From contig NZ_JAQWOO010000047.1 of assembly GCF_029245835.1 (NCBI RefSeq), forward strand, positions 1 through 40,919: DNA of 40,919 nucleotides, written 5' to 3'. This document shows positions 29,107 through 40,647 of the stretch, one piece after another. The translations under genes were made by a program, and so were the position numbers. The notes under the pieces are model-generated. The model was not told where the DNA came from. It did not search any database and worked only from the letters and a program-made list of their open reading frames with translations. Source of the stretch: Algibacter sp. Its GTDB lineage: Bacteria; Bacteroidota; Bacteroidia; Flavobacteriales; Flavobacteriaceae. Numbering within the stretch: the stretch's first letter is position 1; every line of letters starts with the position of its first letter.

Positions 29107-29181
29107 CGGGGTGTAGCGTAGCCCGGTTATCGCGCCACGTTTGGGACGTGGAGGCCGCAGGTTCGAATCCTGCCACCCCGA
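29107..29181 (+). tRNA. tRNA-Pro (anticodon UGG)
   Basis: A 75-nt cloverleaf. Acceptor CGGGGTG (29107-29113) pairs with CACCCCG (29174-29180), with discriminator A. The anticodon stem CCACG/CGTGG encloses loop TTTGGGA, giving anticodon TGG. The T arm is GCAGG-TTCGAAT-CCTGC. CCA is not encoded. A decayed IS3-type element starts about 100 bp downstream. Confidence 0.95.
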
Positions 29182-29204
29182 CAAATAGTATATCAATCTA
29201 TGTT

Positions 29205-29283: not shown

Positions 29284-29697
29284 TTATATGAAAGTGATTT
29301 CTGATACCTATACTTGATTTATTCTGGATACTTTAAAGTTTTGATTTAGAATATTAGCAGCAATAGGGTATTTATGATTACTATTTGTTGCTGTCTTAAA
29401 TTTACGTTTTCTTCTAGCAAATAAACCATTGACTTTAATTAATTTAGCTGCTCTAGGTCTGTAAATATAATGTCCTAACTTTTCTAATGCTGTTTTTATT
29501 CTTGGTGGGCCATAACTCTCAAAACTATTTTTAAAAATACTGGTAATTAATTCTGATAGTTTCTTATTGTATAAACAAAGTTTTGAAACCTTAGCCTTTA
29601 ACCAACTATAATAGCCACTAGTGCTAACTTTTAAAACGTTACACACCTTCTCGACTATAAACTTAAATTTTTGATGTTTTATAAACCTAAATTTCAC
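29284..29697 (-). pseudogene. IS3-family transposase OrfB, N-terminal fragment
   Basis: The intact stretch (129 codons) opens MKFRFIKHQKFKFIVEKVCN and contains the OrfB HTH_21 landmarks LKVSTSGYYSWLK and SYGPPRIKTALEKLG. It stops at INQV, where intact elements continue with WVSDITYI. Here the next codon is TAG, one base from TGG, and reading through gives VSEITFI before another stop. The Trp-to-stop change and the loss of the first catalytic Asp show decay. The rest of the integrase core is missing. Confidence 0.8.
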
Positions 29698-29979: not shown

Positions 29980-30987
29980 CTAATCTAGCAGTTTAAGCTT
30001 TGTTAAATCATGGAAAAAGAAGTTCTTTTCATCATTCATACTTACAAATAGTCCATTAGGAAATTTGTTTCCTAAAGCTGACATAGTTAAATCACAACCA
30101 TCAGTTTCAATAGTGCCTAAATTAATCTCTTTTATAAAAACGGTTGTATCAGCATCAAAAATATTAAACGTGTTTGCTTGCTGATTTGAAATTATTAAAA
30201 AAGATTTATTATCATATTTCGCAATAGCTATACCTTCAATATCCTCTTTAAAATACTCTACACCAAAGCAATATATTTCTTTGTCTCCTTTTAATGGGTT
30301 TGCGTAATATTTATGGATTCCATAGCCTTCATCAGAATAATAAAGAATACCCTTTTCGTCATCAACCGCAATAGCTTCTATTTCCTTTTTTCCACTAAAT
30401 GCTCCTAACTTTCTGATTAAATTAGCTTTAACTCCTAAAGAATCTGAAACCAATTCGTATTGGTATAAATATCCTTTTTTTGGACCGTTTTTTCTACTTA
30501 CAAAAACTGAAACTTGTCCTGTTTTAGGGTTTTTATAAATTGAAACTCCCATGGGTCGTTTCATTTCAATAGCTGTTTCGTCCTCAAAAACTTTAAAGCC
30601 TCCATTATCCAATGGTTTCATATCTGGAATAGAAAACAGTCGTATTTGATGCTTTTCTCTTTCTGAAAACACCATAATATCCGTCGAAGTAGAATCTGTT
30701 AAAGCAAAACCATATTCCACATCCACATTATTTGGGTATCTTATTCCTATGATGCTTTTTTCTTTAATGATCTTTCCGTCTAAATTAAAGGCATAAACGC
30801 CACCATTAAATTCATCTTTATCTGTTCCAAAAACGATGCTTTCTTCTGGATTTGTTTTGTTAATCCAAATAGAAGGATCATCGGTGTCATGCAAGGTCTT
30901 TTCTGTAATTACATCTGGTGCTATTACAGGCAACTTTTTTCCGCATGAAACCACCAGTAATCCTATTATTATAAATATATACCTCAT
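29980..30987 (-). CDS. Beta-propeller phytase lipoprotein (3-phytase family)
   Basis: A 335-residue beta-propeller phytase, which releases phosphate from inositol phosphates with bound calcium. Lipobox VVSC, acylated Cys15. Family motifs are DDPSIW (36-41), GTDK (54-57), YAFNLDGK (65-72), NNVDV (86-90), and later EIEAIAVDDEKGILYYSDE and IEGIAIAKYD, which hold the calcium-binding acidic residues. Anchored in the envelope, it would work with the TonB receptor gene directly upstream (5-bp gap, same operon). Its place opposite a PhoX-like gene with Pho-box-like repeats supports a role in phosphate scavenging. Confidence 0.9.
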   Translation of the reverse strand: MRYIFIIIGLLVVSCGKKLPVIAPDVITEKTLHDTDDPSIWINKTNPEESIVFGTDKDEFNGGVYAFNLDGKIIKEKSIIGIRYPNNVDVEYGFALTDSTSTDIMVFSEREKHQIRLFSIPDMKPLDNGGFKVFEDETAIEMKRPMGVSIYKNPKTGQVSVFVSRKNGPKKGYLYQYELVSDSLGVKANLIRKLGAFSGKKEIEAIAVDDEKGILYYSDEGYGIHKYYANPLKGDKEIYCFGVEYFKEDIEGIAIAKYDNKSFLIISNQQANTFNIFDADTTVFIKEINLGTIETDGCDLTMSALGNKFPNGLFVSMNDEKNFFFHDLTKLKLLD

Positions 30988-30992
30988 AAAAA

Positions 30993-33854
30993 CTACTTGT
31001 TTTTACTTTTAAATAAATCATACTTTAAACCAAGAGTGAAGCGTCTTCCGTAATATTCTGCTTGCATGGTTCTTTGTTTTACACCTTGAAAATAACGTAA
31101 CGGTTGATCTGTAATATTATTTAATCCAGCGTATAAGCTTAAGTTTTGATTTATTGAAAAATTAGCATTAAAGTCTAGAAAGAATTGTTCATCATAATAC
31201 CTATCTTCAAAAGTATTCCCACCAATTTCATCTACATAAGAATCAGAATAGTTAGCAGATAAACGTAAACTTAACCTTTTGCTATCATAAGCTAAAGAAG
31301 CATTAAACATGTTAGGTGCCGTATTTGGCAAATCTAAATCAGTTCGTTCATCACCATCTTCATTTCTAATACCATTGGCGTCAGATGTTAAGTGTGTATA
31401 ATTTAAATAAACACTAAAGTTTTTAGCAAATCCTGGTAAAAAATCTAGCTTTCTTTGAAATGCAAATTCAAAACCAAAAACAGAGGCGTCATCACCATTT
31501 AAAGGTTGGAATACATCAAACCCAGTAGTACCTGTGCCAAAAGAATCATCAGTAGTTTCTGTCTGGAAGGTGTAAATAAAATCATTTATCTTTTTATAAA
31601 ATACACCTCCTGAAATAATTCCTACACTTTTAAAATAATGTTCAGCCATAACATCAAAATTCATAGATGTTGTAGGGTTTAATTCTGAATTTCCTACAAA
31701 AACCTCTTCGTCACTTAATACAACATCTAGTGTTGGTACTAAATCTGCATAATTTGGTCTTGCTAAAGTATTAGTCCAAGCAAATCTAAAAATAGTTGCA
31801 TCCGTTAAATTGTATTTAAAATGAATCCCAGGAAGCACATTCGTATAAGAACTCTCATCGGTTATTTGATCAATTACACTCTCTTCGTCTTCAATTTGAT
31901 TTCCAGTTGCTCTAATTTTTGTAGTTTCTATTCTTAGGCCAAAAAGTACATTTAATTTTTCAGAAAGTTTTTGACTTGCCATTGCATAACCTGCAAATAC
32001 ATTTTCTTCCACATCAAAATTTGCGCGTAAATATTCGTCTGGCACATCTTCACTTTCAAAAAGAGATGTATCATTTAAATTTAATCCGCCTAAAAATTCA
32101 GGTGTAGCAAAAGTACCAACTGCGTATTGACTTCCTGCTAGATAATTAGAATCAGAATAATCGCGAGTAGGAACAAATCCTAATTCATCAAAACCACCAT
32201 TCAGTGGACTGTATTCCATAAAATTATTATCTCTGTTTTTATTTTTAAATCTACCTCTTACACCAAATTTTAAAAAACCGTTTTCTTGATTAAATAATTT
32301 TAGAGGTAATTGAAAATTTACAAACATGTTAAAATCCTCTTCCTCGGTATATTGGTTTTCCTCTGTTAATTCCCCGAATTCAAAATCATTATAATTAGCA
32401 GCAGCAATTACAGGTGTGGATAAAGGAAACTCAGAATCGTTGTTAAAATTAATAGTATACTCACTTTCATACTCCAAATAACGTTCGTTTAAACGTTCTT
32501 CTGAAGCTTTTGCAAATGATGCCATCCAGTCTATTTGTAATGTATTCGCTAAGTGCTCACCACCTAAACTGAAATTGAACATCCGTTGGTCTTCTAAACG
32601 TCTGTTTTTACTGCGTTGATTGTCAATACCTCCTTTTGATTGTCTTTTGACTTCTACAGGAAATGATGTTAAATTACCATTTCCATCAATTGTAAAATCT
32701 CCAGGTTCAATGTCTTCACCATCTAAAATTTCGTGTTCTAAACGGAATCTGTTTTCACGGTCGTCTCGCCAATTATAAATAGATTTAAAATAAATGTTAT
32801 TATTATCATTTATTTTGTAGTCAAAATTTGCTGAAAAACTACGACGAATACGTTGAACCAAATATTCTCGAATTTCGAATACGTTTGCATAAGGATTGAC
32901 ATCTAATTCTTCTAAATTATCTTCATCATCAAAAGCATTATAATCAAACTCGTCTGTCCATTCCGCTTCAAAATTATCACTACCAAAATCATTATCATTA
33001 AAAGATGTAGAAACCATCCAACCAAATTTTTCGTCTTTAGATCTATCTCCCAATAAAAAAGAGCCATTAATTATTCTTTTATTGGTAATATAATTAACTC
33101 CAGAGCCTCCAGTTGCAGACAATCTAAAACCTTGTGGCGAAGTTCTGGTTATTAAATTAACAGAACCACCAAGTGCATCTGCATCCATATCGGGAGTTAC
33201 TGCTTTATTCACTTCGATAGTTTGAATCATATCAGACGGAATTAAATCCATTTGTATGTTTCTGTTATCTCCCTCCGCCGACGGAATCCTACTACCATTT
33301 AAGGTTACAGAATTTAATTCTGGTGATAATCCACGAACAATAATATTTCTGGCCTCTCCTTGATCTACTTGCATTGTAATTCCAGGAATACGTTTTACAG
33401 CATCTCCAATATTAGCATCAGGGAATTTACCAATTTGATCAGTTGAAACAATATTGGTAATGTTCGTTTTATTTTTTTGTGTGTTTAAAGCTCTTGCTTG
33501 CCCGCCTATTGAGTAACCAGTTATTTGAACTTCATTTAATTCGGTGCTTTTAGAAGTTAAAGTAATATTAACTGCTGTTGTTGCATTGCTTGCTAAAGCA
33601 ATCTCTTCTTTATAATCCACATATCCTAAATACTTAATTAATAATGTATAAGTGCCTTCAGGAATATCAACCATAGTGAATTTTCCATCAAAATCTGATA
33701 TTGCGCCTTTTTTTAGTTGTTCAATTAAAATGGATGCTCCAGGAACAGTAATACCGTTGTCATCAGTTATAACACCTTGTATATTAGAATTTTGTGCGAA
33801 TCCAAAAGATGAAAAGATTAAGATAAAGAATAAAATTACGTAGTGTTTTTTCAT
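30993..33854 (-). CDS. Large TonB-dependent receptor with carboxypeptidase-regulatory-like domain, linked to phytase
   Basis: A 953-residue outer-membrane receptor. The signal peptide is residues 1-20 (ending SFGFAQ), then a CarboxypepD_reg-like domain (about 24-105; IQGVITDDNGITVPGASILI), then the plug (about 115-235; IGDAVKRIPGITMQVDQGEARNIIVRG, with ALGGSVNLITR), and a barrel ending RRFTLGLKYDLF. The plug is of the type seen in the Xanthomonas/Caulobacter-like receptor group, which imports larger organic substrates. Because the phytase follows after 5 bp, the likely cargo is an organophosphate, such as an inositol phosphate, or its complex. Cargo is inferred from neighbours only. Confidence 0.9.
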   Translation of the reverse strand: MKKHYVILFFILIFSSFGFAQNSNIQGVITDDNGITVPGASILIEQLKKGAISDFDGKFTMVDIPEGTYTLLIKYLGYVDYKEEIALASNATTAVNITLTSKSTELNEVQITGYSIGGQARALNTQKNKTNITNIVSTDQIGKFPDANIGDAVKRIPGITMQVDQGEARNIIVRGLSPELNSVTLNGSRIPSAEGDNRNIQMDLIPSDMIQTIEVNKAVTPDMDADALGGSVNLITRTSPQGFRLSATGGSGVNYITNKRIINGSFLLGDRSKDEKFGWMVSTSFNDNDFGSDNFEAEWTDEFDYNAFDDEDNLEELDVNPYANVFEIREYLVQRIRRSFSANFDYKINDNNNIYFKSIYNWRDDRENRFRLEHEILDGEDIEPGDFTIDGNGNLTSFPVEVKRQSKGGIDNQRSKNRRLEDQRMFNFSLGGEHLANTLQIDWMASFAKASEERLNERYLEYESEYTINFNNDSEFPLSTPVIAAANYNDFEFGELTEENQYTEEEDFNMFVNFQLPLKLFNQENGFLKFGVRGRFKNKNRDNNFMEYSPLNGGFDELGFVPTRDYSDSNYLAGSQYAVGTFATPEFLGGLNLNDTSLFESEDVPDEYLRANFDVEENVFAGYAMASQKLSEKLNVLFGLRIETTKIRATGNQIEDEESVIDQITDESSYTNVLPGIHFKYNLTDATIFRFAWTNTLARPNYADLVPTLDVVLSDEEVFVGNSELNPTTSMNFDVMAEHYFKSVGIISGGVFYKKINDFIYTFQTETTDDSFGTGTTGFDVFQPLNGDDASVFGFEFAFQRKLDFLPGFAKNFSVYLNYTHLTSDANGIRNEDGDERTDLDLPNTAPNMFNASLAYDSKRLSLRLSANYSDSYVDEIGGNTFEDRYYDEQFFLDFNANFSINQNLSLYAGLNNITDQPLRYFQGVKQRTMQAEYYGRRFTLGLKYDLFKSKNK

Positions 33855-33910
33855 TGTTAATTTATTGATTAATTAATTTTCCGCTAAATAACAAAATGAG
33901 TAAATGAAGC

Positions 33911-33930
33911 GTTTTAAGTACGCTTTAAAT
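33911..33930. promoter_or_regulatory. Possible direct-repeat site upstream of the TonB receptor/phytase operon
   Basis: GTTTTAAGTAC and GCTTTAAATTA form an 11-bp direct repeat about 60 bp upstream of the receptor ATG; AAGCG (33907-33911) and CGCTT (33921-33925) also form an inverted pair. The spacing equals that of the boxes on the other side, but the match to TTAAC is poor. Confidence 0.3.
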
Positions 33931-34530
33931 TATGGTTATCTATGATGTAAAAATTCTTAGATTTTAAACGCGCTTAACAATAAATAAAACTTAAGGTTAC
34001 ATTTTATTTAATTCTATAAAAAACTTAAATGTTCTACATTTGGTGAGAACTGGCCCAGAATCATTGACCTTCGAGTTATGAGATTATTAAAAAAAACAGA
34101 CCAAATACTATCAAGTATAATCTCAATTGTTAACCTTTTTACATAAAGAAGCTATTTTAGTGTCAGTTAAATTTTCACCCTTTCAGAACACCTTTAAAAC
34201 CAATTCTTTTAAAACTTAATTAGTTCCAACTTGAACACAATACTTTAAATGTTAATAAGGCTATATTTATTTTCGCTTTTTGGTTTTATTTTTTTTTATT
34301 TTAGAAATTTAAATCCCTTTATTCAACTGTTTACAGATGAATCTTGCATCGCAAGTACTGATAATTCTGTGGTTTTTTAAAATCACTTTCTTTTTAAGGG
34401 CATGTTTGCTTAAAAATACATGTAAATTGACAGTTATTCTACTTCAATAAATCTAAAAAATATAGTCATTCATTTTTAATACAAATGATATTAAACTTAA
34501 AAATGTCTTAATTAATACTCAGTTAAACTT

Positions 34531-34580
34531 CTTAACTTATAACTAACCATAAGTTAATCAAACCACATTCTTAGCTTAAC
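34531..34580 (+). promoter_or_regulatory. Pho-box-like array of TTAAC boxes in 11-bp register
   Basis: CTTAAC (34531), ACTAAC (34542), GTTAAT (34553) and CTTAAC (34575) start at multiples of 11 bp; the fourth position (34564, CACATT) is degenerate. Boxes of pattern YTTAAYYW with 3-bp spacers bind SphR in cyanobacteria, and TTAACA-like repeats with about 11-bp period bind PhoP in Bacillus. The last box ends 21 bp before a -7 element, where an activator would replace the missing -33 contact. Recognition by a PhoB-like regulator is inferred. Confidence 0.6.
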
Positions 34581-34601
34581 AAGTTTTACAAAGTCTAATT
34601 A

Positions 34602-34609
34602 TAAATTTG
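34602..34609 (+). promoter_or_regulatory. Promoter -7 element of the PhoX-like gene
   Basis: TAAATTTG matches TAnnTTTG, 33 nt before the ATG. No TTG is present 17-19 bp upstream; the box array occupies that place, as expected of an activator-dependent promoter. Confidence 0.55.
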
Positions 34610-34642: not shown

Positions 34643-36253
34643 ATGAACAAATTATTTAGACTCGTACTATTACTTTTAATTAGTGTTATAACTACTACAA
34701 CATTTGTTAGTTGTGAAGGCGAAGATGGAATTAATGGTATAGATGGCGTTGATGGTGCTGATGGTGTTGATGGTGCTGACGGAATGGATGGTGCTGATGG
34801 TGAAGATTTAACTGTTGCTGAAATGGAGCCGTTAATCTCCTCAGTAATTCCCAATTCAGTCTTTGCATTGAAAGGTCAATTTACTTCCGCAAATTTATCA
34901 ATGATTATGACTTCTCAAGATATCCTGCCAACGGATTCTACTTTTGTCTATGGAGGATATATGGATGGCGCTGCACTTTTTCCTTACGGAGATGGTACAT
35001 ATGCACTCATAAACAATTTAGAGGTAGATTATTCAATTGCAAGAATTAGATTAAACTCAGATTTACAAGCACTTGAAGGGGATTACATCGTAAATTCTAC
35101 AGCCACCGCTTTTACGGCTATGTGTTCTGGCTCTTCAATTACTGTTGAGGAGCATGGTTTTGGACCGTTATACCTATCTGGTGGTGAATGGGGAGGCAAT
35201 GCTAAAGGTGTTTATAGAATAAATCCTTTCCGCTCTAAAGAAGACCGTGTTGAAGCAGATAGATTACCTGCTCTTGGTGAGTGGTCTACTGAAAATGCTG
35301 TTGTAATTGGCAAAGATGCTTACCCAGGTCAAACTGTAGTTTTTATGGGAGATGATGATAGTAATAATTCTTATCCTGAAGCCCATTTTGCCATGTATGT
35401 TGGATCTAGAGGTGATTTAAATGGTGGAGACCTATACGTATTAAAAGGAAAAAACCCAATAGAAACTGCACCAGGAGCTGGAGGTCAGTTATTTGAAATG
35501 GGTATGTCAGAAGGTACCGATTACGATGTTGAGTGGGTAAAAGTTAACGAACGAACTATTGATGAATTGAATCAAGAAGCTATAGATTTAAAAGCTATAG
35601 GTTTCCAGAGAATTGAAGACATAGATTGGCAAAAAGGTTCTGCTTCAGCTAACAGAAATGTATTTTTTAATGCTACTGGAAGGTACAGATCGAATAACCC
35701 AGATTTAGCAAACAGAGGAACTACTTTTGGGAGAGTATATAAATTACAATTAAACCCAGATAACCCAACTGCAGATGCTAAATTAACTGTTGTGGTTGAT
35801 GGTGATAAAGAAAATGGTATTGGTGATGGTATGCACTCGCCAGATAATATTATGGTTACAGAAAACTATGCTTACATCCAAGAAGATCCAAATGGTTATG
35901 CTTCATTAAACTCTGATATTACTGGTTATGCGAAGTTATGGCAATATGATATTACAGCTGGAACTTTACAAGAAGTCATGGAGTGTGATCAAACTACTGC
36001 TAGTGGGTTGAATATTGGGAACACAAGTTCTATGTGGGAAATTACCGGTTTAATTGATGTTACTGATATTATTGGATCATCAGAATCTACGTTTATAGGT
36101 GGTGCTCAAGTACATGGTTGGAGACCAGATGTTAATCCAGATAATGCTCAAAGAGCTGATGGAAGTTTCTTCTTCGATCCAACTGCCATATTTGAATCTG
36201 AGGCAGCGAAGGAAGGTTCTTTTTTATTTAAAATTACTGGTTTACCTAGATAG
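34643..36253 (+). CDS. PhoX-like (DUF839) phosphatase lipoprotein with collagen-like Gly-X-Asp tract
   Basis: A 536-residue predicted lipoprotein: lipobox FVSC, acylated Cys24. Residues 26-55 are ten Gly-X-Y triplets, mostly G-x-D (GIDGVDGADGVDGADG), a collagen-like or calcium-binding stalk. The rest resembles the PhoX/DUF839 beta-propeller: FQRIEDIDW (321-329), NVFFNATGR (339-347), FGRVYKLQLNP (362-372), SPDNIMV (399-405) and YIQEDPN (411-417) correspond to the metal- and phosphate-site segments of that family. PhoX enzymes are calcium/iron phosphomonoesterases made under phosphate limitation. Identification is by recognition of these motifs and not by alignment; another propeller-type hydrolase is possible. 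Upstream are Pho-like boxes; downstream is a di-haem peroxidase fusion. Confidence 0.78.
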   Translation: MNKLFRLVLLLLISVITTTTFVSCEGEDGINGIDGVDGADGVDGADGMDGADGEDLTVAEMEPLISSVIPNSVFALKGQFTSANLSMIMTSQDILPTDSTFVYGGYMDGAALFPYGDGTYALINNLEVDYSIARIRLNSDLQALEGDYIVNSTATAFTAMCSGSSITVEEHGFGPLYLSGGEWGGNAKGVYRINPFRSKEDRVEADRLPALGEWSTENAVVIGKDAYPGQTVVFMGDDDSNNSYPEAHFAMYVGSRGDLNGGDLYVLKGKNPIETAPGAGGQLFEMGMSEGTDYDVEWVKVNERTIDELNQEAIDLKAIGFQRIEDIDWQKGSASANRNVFFNATGRYRSNNPDLANRGTTFGRVYKLQLNPDNPTADAKLTVVVDGDKENGIGDGMHSPDNIMVTENYAYIQEDPNGYASLNSDITGYAKLWQYDITAGTLQEVMECDQTTASGLNIGNTSSMWEITGLIDVTDIIGSSESTFIGGAQVHGWRPDVNPDNAQRADGSFFFDPTAIFESEAAKEGSFLFKITGLPR

Positions 36254-36259
36254 TCTAGC

Positions 36260-36301
<42 letters not shown>

Positions 36302-36362: not shown

Positions 36363-38195
36363 ATGAAATTTCTAAAAATTCTAGTATTAGTTCTTTTAAC
36401 TTCATCAATTATAGTATCATGTAAAAAAGAAAATACTATATCAACTATTAAAACAATATCTGCTACCGAAGAGTCGATATTTAATGAAAATATTAGACAG
36501 TATTATTTTCAAACCTTAGATAGTGCTTCCTTTTACGTCCACCGGATAGATACACTTCAACCAATAGAAAAAAATAGGAGTAACTTCTTGCTTAGTAGAA
36601 AATGGTATAAGAAAGCAGAACCGCTAATGATTGCTTACGACTATCAAAATTATTTATCTATGAATGCTCCAAACCTTTTAAAGGTAGAAATAGATGACCA
36701 TACAGATATCAAAAAAATTAAACCTAAAAGTTATCAAGTACTTGAAGAATATTTGTTTGGAGTGGATGATGTTTCACATAAAGAGTTATTTAGCATATAC
36801 AATTATCTGCAAGCAAGAATTCCCTATATCAGAAAAAATCACAATATTTATAACCAAAGCGACAGACATCATTTAAAAATGATTAGAGATGCCATTGTAA
36901 ATATTGCTACTAAAGGGATTACAGGATTTGATTCACCTATACTTGCAAACTCATTAAGAGAGGCGGTATACAACTACGAATCAATAAAATATGTTATCTC
37001 TACTTATAAAAATACGCTTAACACTATTCTATATAATAATTGGATGAGTGAGATTAATAACTCTATTAAGACCTTGGACACAAGCGATTTTGATACTTTC
37101 GATAGATATTCATTTATTAAAAACCATACAAATAAACAATTAGAGTTAATTAACAATATAACTGAAGATTGGAAAATTGAGTTAAGTAAATCTAGACCTT
37201 TAGACCCAACAAGTACCAATATATTTTCAGCATCATTTTTTAATAAAAAAATGTTTGCTCCTCCACATTCTCCAGAAATTTCAGATGAAAGAATTGCTTT
37301 AGGCGAGGTATTATTTAATGATGAAAGCCTGTCTGGTTCTAATACAATAAGCTGTGCTACGTGCCATATAAAGGAAAAAGCATTTACCGATGGTCTTAAA
37401 ACAGCCTTAGGATTAAACGGAGAAGCACTTCTGCGTAATACGCCTTCACTTTCTTACGCTGTATATCAAAAAACTTTTTTTTATGATGGACGCGGAGATG
37501 GTATTGAAGGGCAGATAGTTAGTGTAGCTAATAATAAAAATGAATTCCATATCGATTTAAATACACTAGAGAAAAGAATACAAAACAACCCAGCTTACAA
37601 ACAACAATTTGACTCTTTATACGAAGGGAAAATAAATAATCGGAATATAAGACATGCGATAGCTACATACATACGTAGTTTAACGCCTTTTGATTCTAAA
37701 TTTGATAGAAATATGCAAGGTTTAGAAAATACTTTAAATAATGAAGAGGTTTTAGGTTTTAACTTATTTATGGGAAAAGCAGCATGTGCTACCTGTCATT
37801 TTCCACCAGCATTTTACGGAACTGTACCACCAAAATTTGATGAAACCGAATTCGAAAATTTAGGACTCACCAAAACTACAGATTTTAAAAACCCTCTTTT
37901 AGATGAAGACCCTGGCTTGTACTACCCTTATAAAGTCGAAGAAAGACGAGGTTTTTTTAAAACATCAACTGTTAGAAATATTGAATTGACAGCTCCTTAC
38001 ATGCATAATGGTGCTTTTGAAACTTTAGAGCAGGTACTTGAATTTTATAATTTTGGTGGTGGACAAGGCATGGGTCTGGATGTTCCGTATCAAACCTTGC
38101 CATCAAGCAGTCTAGGTTTAACTAAAAATGAAATTCAGGCTATTATTGCTTTTATAAAGTCACTAACTGATAATTCAATAGCCGAATATAACTAA
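36363..38195 (+). CDS. Imelysin-like / di-haem cytochrome c peroxidase (MauG-type) fusion lipoprotein
   Basis: A 610-residue lipoprotein: lipobox IIVSC, acylated Cys20. Residues about 35-280 look like an imelysin (M75/EfeO-like) helical domain: SRKWYKKAEPLMIAYDY (78-94) and PKSYQVLEEYLFG (121-133) match its conserved helices, though GxHxxE is not preserved. Residues about 300-600 form a di-haem peroxidase with haem motifs CATCH at 331-335 and 475-479, plus the family segments LRNTPSLSYAVYQKTFFYDGR and RNIELTAPYMHNGAFETLEQVLEFYN. It would reduce peroxide or oxidise a protein or metal substrate in the periplasm. It follows the PhoX-like gene in the same direction, 109 bp away, so a link to that system is likely. 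The left end of the IS982 element lies 8 bp after its stop. Confidence 0.85.
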   Translation: MKFLKILVLVLLTSSIIVSCKKENTISTIKTISATEESIFNENIRQYYFQTLDSASFYVHRIDTLQPIEKNRSNFLLSRKWYKKAEPLMIAYDYQNYLSMNAPNLLKVEIDDHTDIKKIKPKSYQVLEEYLFGVDDVSHKELFSIYNYLQARIPYIRKNHNIYNQSDRHHLKMIRDAIVNIATKGITGFDSPILANSLREAVYNYESIKYVISTYKNTLNTILYNNWMSEINNSIKTLDTSDFDTFDRYSFIKNHTNKQLELINNITEDWKIELSKSRPLDPTSTNIFSASFFNKKMFAPPHSPEISDERIALGEVLFNDESLSGSNTISCATCHIKEKAFTDGLKTALGLNGEALLRNTPSLSYAVYQKTFFYDGRGDGIEGQIVSVANNKNEFHIDLNTLEKRIQNNPAYKQQFDSLYEGKINNRNIRHAIATYIRSLTPFDSKFDRNMQGLENTLNNEEVLGFNLFMGKAACATCHFPPAFYGTVPPKFDETEFENLGLTKTTDFKNPLLDEDPGLYYPYKVEERRGFFKTSTVRNIELTAPYMHNGAFETLEQVLEFYNFGGGQGMGLDVPYQTLPSSSLGLTKNEIQAIIAFIKSLTDNSIAEYN

Positions 38196-38203
38196 TTTAA
38201 AGA

Positions 38204-39181
38204 AACCCGTTGTGCATTATGATTTAAAAGAAAAAAGTTATCCATATTGCTGAAAATCAGCAAACTGATTTAACCACAAATCATTAATAATAAACAACTT
38301 AAATGAAAATTACGAAAGAATAGAAGTGTTAAGAAAAATATCAAAAGAACAGCTTTTAACTCATCAAAGGCGTTAACCAAAGCTTAGCGATTTAGAACTT
38401 ATTAGTTTGAGTCTAACTGCTGAATTTATGGGAATAGATAGTAAGAATAACTTGTTTAGAAAACTTCTAAAGCATATGTTAGCAAGAATTGAGCGCAGTG
38501 TTTACAACAGGCGACGAAGAAAACTAGCTAATGAGCACAATGATATTCGATTAAAATTAGCTTCTGTTTTTTAATGAGTTTGAAAATTATTTCGTTGTAG
38601 ATAGTATGCCTTTAGAAGTATGTAAATTATCACGAATCTCACGCTCAAAAATCTGTAAAGAAGAAGCTTATGCGTTCCCTGACAAGGGTTTTTTGTGCTG
38701 CGAAAAATCTACTTACTATGATTATAAATTACACTCTGCTTGCTCTGTAAATGGCGTTTTTCAAAGTGTAGATTTAAGTCTAGCTTCTGTACGCGACATC
38801 AATTATCTAAAAGATATTAAGATGCAAATACGTGACTGCACATTAATTGGAGATAGCGGTTGCTTATCAGCTAAAATCCAACTTAATCTGTTTGAATCCT
38901 GCAATATAAAACTCAATACACCTATGAGAAATAATCAAAAAGATTATAAGAAACAACCTTATTTGTTTCGGTAAAAAAGAAAAATAATAGAAACATTATT
39001 TTCTCAACTGTGAGACCAGTTTATGATAAGACGCAACTAAGCAAAGACTTTTGAAGGATTTAAAACGAGAATATTATCTAAAATAATCGCCCTAACAACG
39101 ATTCAGTATATTAACAAATTTATATTTGACAGAAACATTAACAATATTAAAACTAGCATTATTTAAAATGCACAACGGGTT
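38204..39181 (+). mobile_element. IS982-family insertion sequence, decayed, 978 bp
   Basis: Perfect 15-bp terminal inverted repeats AACCCGTTGTGCATT (38204-38218) and its complement (39167-39181), typical in sequence and total length for IS982 elements. The single transposase gene is broken by stops and a frameshift. The flanking bases (left TTAAAGA, right AACTTAC) are not a duplication. The left end is 8 bp from the stop of the peroxidase gene and the right end truncates a lipoprotein gene. Confidence 0.88.
38290..39166 (+). pseudogene. IS982-family transposase pseudogene
   Basis: Transposase translated in pieces. The start codon appears changed to ATA (near 38290, followed by NNLNENYERIEVLRKIS). 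An in-frame TAA follows QRR at about 38377 and the frame then continues PKLSDLELISLSLTAEF. A one-base insertion near 38571 shifts the frame before FNEFENYFVVDSMPLEVC. From 38606 the frame is open (KLSRISRSKICKEE, DCTLIGDSGCLSAKIQ, LNTPMRNNQKDYKK) to a TAA after YLFR. After that TGA and TAA codons interrupt TLFSQL-DQFMIRRN-AKTFEGFKTRILSKIIALTTIQYINKF. It is clearly inactive. Confidence 0.88.

Positions 39182-40569: not shown

Positions 40570-40647
<78 letters not shown>

Follow-up and report, generated by a model that had tools for sequence, protein, structure and literature searches.

An array of TTAAC-type repeats with an 11-bp period before a phoX-like gene of Algibacter sp. is a probable Pho box of the Flavobacteriaceae

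Bacteroidota play an important part in the recycling of organic phosphorus. Transcriptome studies have described how they respond to phosphate, and in the literature that we searched no regulatory site has been tied to it in flavobacteria. The question raised by the locus described here is whether an array of short repeats before a PhoX-like gene of Algibacter sp. is such a site. The window, the whole stretch of DNA that was analysed, is contig NZ_JAQWOO010000047.1 with a length of 40,919 nucleotides. The features of the window are given below, and distances are counted from the start of the TAAY core to the T of the −7 element.

29980–30987, minus strand: phytase gene (PF02333), in a divergent operon with the TonB-dependent receptor gene
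30993–33854, minus strand: TonB-dependent receptor (TBDT) gene, first gene of the divergent operon
33913–33938, minus strand: second, divergent array before the TBDT-phytase operon, with TAAC at 33938–33935 (−47), TAAA at 33927–33924 (−36) and TAAA at 33916–33913 (−25)
34513–34527, plus strand: upstream pair, TAAT at 34513 (−89) and TAAA at 34524 (−78)
34531–34580, plus strand: main array of TTAAC-type boxes
34531–34536, plus strand: box CTTAAC, core at −69
34542–34547, plus strand: box ACTAAC, core at −58
34553–34558, plus strand: box GTTAAT, core at −47
34564–34569, plus strand: degenerate slot CACATT, slot position −36
34575–34580, plus strand: box CTTAAC, core at −25
34602–34609, plus strand: predicted −7 element TAAATTTG (TAnnTTTG)
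34643–36253, plus strand: PhoX-like lipoprotein gene with a short collagen-like GxD stretch
36363–38195, plus strand: gene for a MauG-type di-haem cytochrome c peroxidase, the partner of phoX

The original prediction had placed boxes at 34531, 34542, 34553 and 34575 with one degenerate position, and these starts were confirmed, as was the degenerate slot at 34564. The main array thus consists of head-to-tail direct repeats of 11 bp, as expected of a Pho box, with YTAAY words in four of five slots. It ends 21 bp before the predicted −7 element, again as had been claimed, and the start codon at 34643 lies downstream of this element. The two members of the upstream pair are also 11 bp apart and are separated from the main array by a step of 9 bp. 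The intergenic region that carries the array is 788 bp long with a G+C content of 24%. When this region was shuffled with its dinucleotides preserved, four of five slots at a period of 11 were reached in 2 of 20,000 shuffles, and in 14 of 20,000 if any period from 9 to 12 was allowed. For periods of 7 to 15, the whole window holds no second place in which four of five slots are filled. The genome scan that had been proposed as a check of the original prediction gave no enrichment: the three-box pattern was matched 3 times in the whole genome versus 3 times for the reversed control, and of the other two genome matches, one precedes a gene for an envelope protein and one falls where two open reading frames meet. 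The word pattern alone is therefore weak, and a comparison across genomes was needed.

The P0001 relatives used for this comparison are 24 phoX genes from 23 genomes, each of another genus, out of 120 that represent the family. In the 250 bp upstream of these genes, pairs of YTAAC at a distance of 11 bp were counted 8 times versus 0.11 expected from 300 shuffles; the corresponding values are 6 versus 0.12 at 33 bp and 9 versus 0.10 at 44 bp. With the window excluded the counts at the three distances are 7, 5, and 8. Pairs of YTAAY at 20, 31, and 42 bp were likewise raised, which fits upstream boxes that stand 9 bp off the main register. With a weight matrix of 72 bp, box 1 was placed 102–118 bp before the ATG in 20 of the 24 promoters. 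The sites of 17 of the 24 were aligned (A1, the source of model R1); L012, L013, L015, and L016 were left out for poor placement and L014, L018, and L019 for weak fit. In all 17 aligned promoters the −7 letters TA..TTT are the same and stand at one constant distance, though they lie outside the 72-bp region that was used for placing. Over the 24 promoters, the counts of TAAC were 17 at −25 and 18 at −69, and those of TAAY were 10 each at −78 and −89. The array is thus kept before phoX relatives of other genera both in its spacing and in its distance to the −7 element; a comparison with related species had been proposed as a check in the original prediction.

The boxes were then counted by their phase relative to the −7 element. 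One phase of the 11 is favoured, with cores at −14, −25, −36, −47, −58, and −69. Between −75 and −10, in-phase TAAY boxes account for 58 of 86 in the phoX promoters and 37 of 68 in the TBDT-phytase promoters, the latter taken from 20 of the 27 genomes in which a phytase was matched, with the window as a 21st. The phoB regions were taken from 20 of 29 genomes. At the phoB locus of Flavobacterium, whose loci are from congeners and hence non-independent, the fractions are 44/58 for the TBDT, 25/35 for the lipoprotein and 25/43 for the OprP porin. All three boxes before one pstS gene are in phase; before the Flavobacterium phoX genes the preference is less clear (16/33). The control promoters from the same loci, as first sorted, gave 60/326.

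At least two in-phase boxes were found in 18 of 24 phoX, 11 of 20 TBDT-phytase, 11 of 13 phoB-linked TBDT, 8 of 10 lipoprotein, 6 of 11 OprP, and 4 of 12 Flavobacterium phoX promoters and in the one pstS promoter. Loss of the array before orthologues, together with its absence from other phosphate genes, had been named as the result that would speak against a Pho box, and the opposite was seen: arrays are kept at the 18 phoX promoters, with six of the wider set lacking two in-phase boxes, and they recur in this phase at other phosphate genes. Among the 227 control promoters, 191 had no in-phase box and 19 had at least two; 14 of these 19, reassigned by eye from their protein starts, are genes of the phoB locus that had been missed in sorting (10 glycosyltransferase, 3 lipoprotein, and 1 TBDT), and 5 remain. 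In the other phases no more than two promoters per group carried at least two boxes, except for OprP, where 4 of 11 did so one phase off (phase 7). For the controls, the number in the other phases was 0 to 7 per phase, comparable to the 5 left in the favoured phase. These counts were made with the −7 elements as set automatically, by which the TBDT-phytase promoters of L217, L221, L223, and the window lack two in-phase boxes. For the pool of sequences from which a model was built, the −7 elements of these four were set by eye as TTATTTAG/TTATTTCG, and three of the four entered the alignment A2 described below. For the divergent array of the window, the −7-like element placed by eye is TTATTTAG at 33891–33884. 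The boxes therefore hold a fixed helical phase to the predicted core promoter, with the proximal unit about where a −33/−35 element would lie, as in a Pho box; the original prediction had noted no −33 partner for the −7 element before phoX.

Two models were used for scanning genomes. R1, made from phoX promoters alone, was run over 16 Flavobacterium genomes, in 15 of which phoB was located, and 7 of its best 25 rows lay within 6 kb of phoB (G121, G123, G125, G132, G133, G134, and G135). Over ten genomes R1 proved too specific for phoX to reveal a wider regulon, and its best row beyond the ten phoX promoters scored 22 bits. R2 was built from 24 hand-chosen sequences of six promoter families aligned at the −7 element (A2: 9 phoX, 4 phoB-linked TBDT, 2 OprP, 5 lipoprotein, 1 pstS, and 3 TBDT-phytase). 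These were drawn from 32 sequences, of which 5 TBDT-phytase and 1 OprP were omitted as gapped in the alignment and 2 glycosyltransferase sequences with no reason noted; wrongly set −7 elements were corrected or the row was removed. The divergent array of the window is one of the training members.

R2 was run over 14 genomes, and the best 50 rows (E up to 0.141) were considered. Of these, 23 come from training sites or from the corresponding promoters of relatives, and the 27 others were all followed up. Twelve of the 27, at 11 loci, were found before phosphate genes. Six of these fall at operons in which an OprP-type porin (PF07396) is paired with a PHO4-family transporter (G072, G061, G017, G036, and G071, the last with two rows), and a seventh precedes an FII-like lipoprotein in G072; all seven concern protein families related to the training genes, at other loci. 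The other five are before genes of families unrelated to the training genes: DUF47 and PHO4 (DUF47-Pit) genes in G123, choice-of-anchor-I lipoproteins in G036, G072, and G127, and a DUF5690-TIGR03364-phosphonatase-like cluster in G135. The choice-of-anchor-I lipoproteins, named from their InterPro entries, may be counterparts of the beta-propeller-type lipoprotein Fjoh_3414. Recurrence before several unrelated phosphate genes, a further property of a Pho box, was thus found. In four of the five porin-PiT operons (G061, G017, G036, and G071) two R2 rows lie 265–322 bp apart. The word TAACATTAAATTAACATT, which holds two boxes in the 11-bp register, occurs once each in L315, L319, L330, L331, and L343, the last being the PiT locus of the Algibacter genome itself, and with one change in L318. 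The remaining 15 of the 27 rows have no evident phosphate gene; 5 are inside open reading frames and 10 are before genes or uncalled stretches. One of these 10 (G135:C25), which precedes a glycoside hydrolase-like gene and a glycosyltransferase gene of the same kind as Fjoh_0541, was left out of the phosphate count.

The site before the DUF5690-TIGR03364-phosphonatase-like cluster, at L328 (G135, via F. cerinum), holds an in-phase pair of boxes. This pair suggests phosphate control of phosphonate use.

In the Algibacter genome (G000), the best 12 of 36 matches to R2 were examined. Two are the promoters of the window, both in the training set, and the divergent array ranks second in the genome, yet as a training member. 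Three of the ten others are at phosphate genes. On contig C67 a site with boxes at −69, −58, −36, and −25 stands before a lipoprotein gene and a TBDT gene, whose products resemble the phoB-locus lipoprotein of Flavobacterium (E 6e-36) and the phoB-linked TBDT (E 3e-93), respectively; a second site on C67 is before a PHO4-family (PiT) transporter, and the third, on C46, is before a choice-of-anchor-I lipoprotein. One further row is before a SusC-like receptor of no assigned role, and the rest are in open reading frames or have no evident link. A candidate for the regulator was found on contig C94, which encodes a PhoB-like/PhoR-like pair with the response regulator at 698–1378. Of the 102 NCBIfam families matched by this protein at E up to 1, PhoB ranks first. 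Its score against TIGR02154 is 218.9 bits, under the curated cut-off of 296.2 bits, a cut-off that was passed by none of 29 flavobacterial genomes and by 2 of 14 control genomes. A PF04101 glycosyltransferase gene adjoins the pair, like the glycosyltransferase in the PhoBR operon of Flavobacterium johnsoniae (PMC8115612 Table 1). In the laboratory strain UW101 of that species PhoB is Fjoh_0544. By eye, the stretch upstream of phoB in the Algibacter genome has no clear 11-bp array.

The genes that carry the arrays can be compared with those induced by phosphate depletion in F. johnsoniae, which are listed in Table 1 of PMC8115612 and comprise phoX-mauG, phytase-TBDT, phoBR-linked TBDT, lipoprotein, and glycosyltransferase genes; in all, 95 transcripts are reported as raised (PMC8115612). 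F. johnsoniae was represented in our set by close relatives, and its Fjoh locus tags were assigned to our loci through gene family and gene order. The layouts of phoX-mauG and TBDT-phytase in the window both match phosphate-induced loci of F. johnsoniae, and a MauG homologue was found in the flank of 35 of the 36 phoX loci examined. In the FC column of that table (log2FC according to the text) the values are 12.50 for Fjoh_2478 (PhoX_like), 9.58 for Fjoh_2477 (MauG_like), 5.76 for the phytase Fjoh_1367, and 9.22 for the TBDT Fjoh_1368; the lipoprotein Fjoh_3414 was raised by 10.32 (PMC8115612 Table 1). The same gene kinds are thus involved, and no binding site was found in PMC8115612, whose main text does not contain the term "pho box". 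Two genes fit less well. Fjoh_0542 (OprP) is a counter-example: its relatives have clear arrays, and Table 1 of PMC8115612 lists it as not induced (−1.3, FDR 0.245). The induction of Fjoh_2478 ranks with the strongest, yet the Flavobacterium phoX arrays are weak, two in-phase TAAY boxes being found in the 4 of 12 noted above.

It was considered whether the arrays could serve another OmpR-family regulator with a similar preference for TTAAC at 11 bp, with the phosphate genes being only part of its regulon. The Algibacter genome encodes a second full-length OmpR-type regulator on contig C57, which scores 144.6 bits to PhoB, and the 15 non-training R2 rows elsewhere than at phosphate genes would speak for such a protein. 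The recurring sites, however, cluster at phosphate genes and at the phoBR locus itself, and we regard this explanation as improbable. Phased A/T tracts bend DNA, and in a region of such low G+C content the boxes might be phased A+T-rich tracts that aid the promoter, through curvature or as an UP-like element, without a specific regulator. The final C of the box is nevertheless kept, as seen from the TAAC counts at −25 and −69, in-phase boxes are absent from most control promoters of the same loci, and the arrays go with phosphate genes, which together make this a very improbable account. That common words of an A+T-rich intergenic region fell into this spacing by chance, for which the equal numbers of genome and control matches to the three-box pattern could be cited, is hardly credible and was rejected on the comparative data, namely, the identical spacing in other genera, the common phase, the rarity in shuffles, and the recurrence at unrelated phosphate promoters.

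We therefore conclude that the TTAAC array is very probably a Pho box of the Flavobacteriaceae, to which a PhoB-type regulator would bind and so activate phoX-mauG under phosphate scarcity. The arrays recur before phosphate-scavenging genes, for the most part at the same distances to the start signal, and it is this that makes them such likely docking sites for PhoB. A PhoB-type activator had been predicted for this promoter at the outset, and the conserved and recurring arrays, the PhoB-like/PhoR-like pair, Table 1 of PMC8115612, and the motif described in PMC9603813 all lend support to it.

We infer the following sequence of events. The binder would be a response regulator of the PhoB type, and the one encoded on C94 with its PhoR-like kinase is the most likely candidate. 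When phosphate is scarce, the regulator would occupy the TTAAC units, forming dimers or oligomers in head-to-tail order, these units lying on one face of the helix and keeping a constant phase relative to the −7 element. The unit nearest to the core promoter, at −25 here and at −14 in some other promoters, would stand about at the position of the −33 element, so that the bound regulator would replace the −33 element and recruit RNA polymerase, and phoX-mauG would be switched on. The second array, on the opposite strand, may play the same role for the divergent TonB receptor-phytase operon.

The core of the E. coli Pho box is CTGTCAT, which the flavobacterial array does not match, its core being TTAAC. 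Bacillus PhoP boxes are TTAACA-like and cyanobacterial SphR boxes read YTTAAYYW. Both have a nearly identical word and the 11-bp period, but they belong to other phyla, with another −7/−10 element and another gene set, and the likeness is one of word and period. Riemerella anatipestifer is a flavobacterial relative whose regulator PhoP we liken here by its motif. TTTAACA are the most conserved letters of the PhoP motif obtained by DAP-seq (PMC9603813), a word similar to that of the Algibacter boxes; the terms "pho box" and "direct repeat" do not occur in the main text of that paper. According to the same report, PhoP was bound by EMSA to eight promoters, one of them of a TonB-dependent receptor, and the 583 peaks, covering 764 genes, are discussed as ArcA-like (PMC9603813). 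The E. coli Pho box consists of two or more 11-nt direct repeats (PMC4415409), and the flavobacterial array shares with it the head-to-tail units of 11 bp near the core promoter of phosphate genes. It differs from the E. coli box, apart from the core, in the −7 element TAnnTTTG, in having up to five slots, and in the extra pair across a 9-bp step at phoX.

Two further reports were found in the literature. Generic putative Pho boxes have been noted near plcP (PMC4796936), and PhoB of B. fragilis binds a 512-bp fragment of the pstC promoter, for which no site was found in PMC3547664. Beyond these and the Riemerella motif, no Pho box of flavobacteria or other Bacteroidota came up in our search for such boxes or for a phosphate regulon, which covered few subscription papers and no bioRxiv preprints; an earlier description is possible. 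The statement of the original prediction that flavobacteria have no well-established Pho box thus agrees with the literature searched, and it has to be qualified by the Riemerella PhoP motif TTTAACA (PMC9603813).

Among the 23 genomes that carry phoX, that of Algibacter included, no match to PhoU (TIGR02135) was found in 22, and 22 likewise lack a PstB that scores over the cut-off; G059 is the only one with both. In F. aquicola, Pst is present. Going by gene content, PhoBR seems to operate in most of the 23 without Pst/PhoU. We tentatively propose that the Flavobacteriaceae may have a Pho regulon of their own design, in which PhoBR would act without PstSCAB or PhoU in most phoX-bearing members, through TTAAC arrays that lie between −14 and −69 and share a single phase relative to the −7 element. 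Such a regulon would control the capture of organic phosphate at the outer membrane (TonB receptor-phytase, phoX-mauG, and FII lipoproteins) and a porin-PiT operon that often has two arrays about 265–320 bp apart. If this is true, phosphate would be sensed independently of Pst, perhaps via the PiT/OprP pair. A defined, phase-locked box would make the Pho regulon predictable from flavobacterial genomes, those of uncultured members included, and makes phosphate sensing without Pst and PhoU directly testable.

The name PhoX-like, as used in the original prediction, holds only by transitivity: 4 of 16 aligned members of the family match PF05787 (PhoX) at E up to 1, the best at 6.6e-10, and the protein of the window itself has no match to PF05787 at E up to 5. 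Searches of PDB sequences with this protein gave no credible relative. Between phoX and mauG, a run of ATA/AAT triplets extends from 36258 to 36300. The phosphate cluster as a whole is flanked by short open reading frames that give the impression of transposase fragments, at 29308–29697 (minus strand) and 38606–38974 (plus strand), and tRNA-Pro genes lie on either side of it at 29107–29182 and 40570–40645, with the anticodons tgg and ggg.
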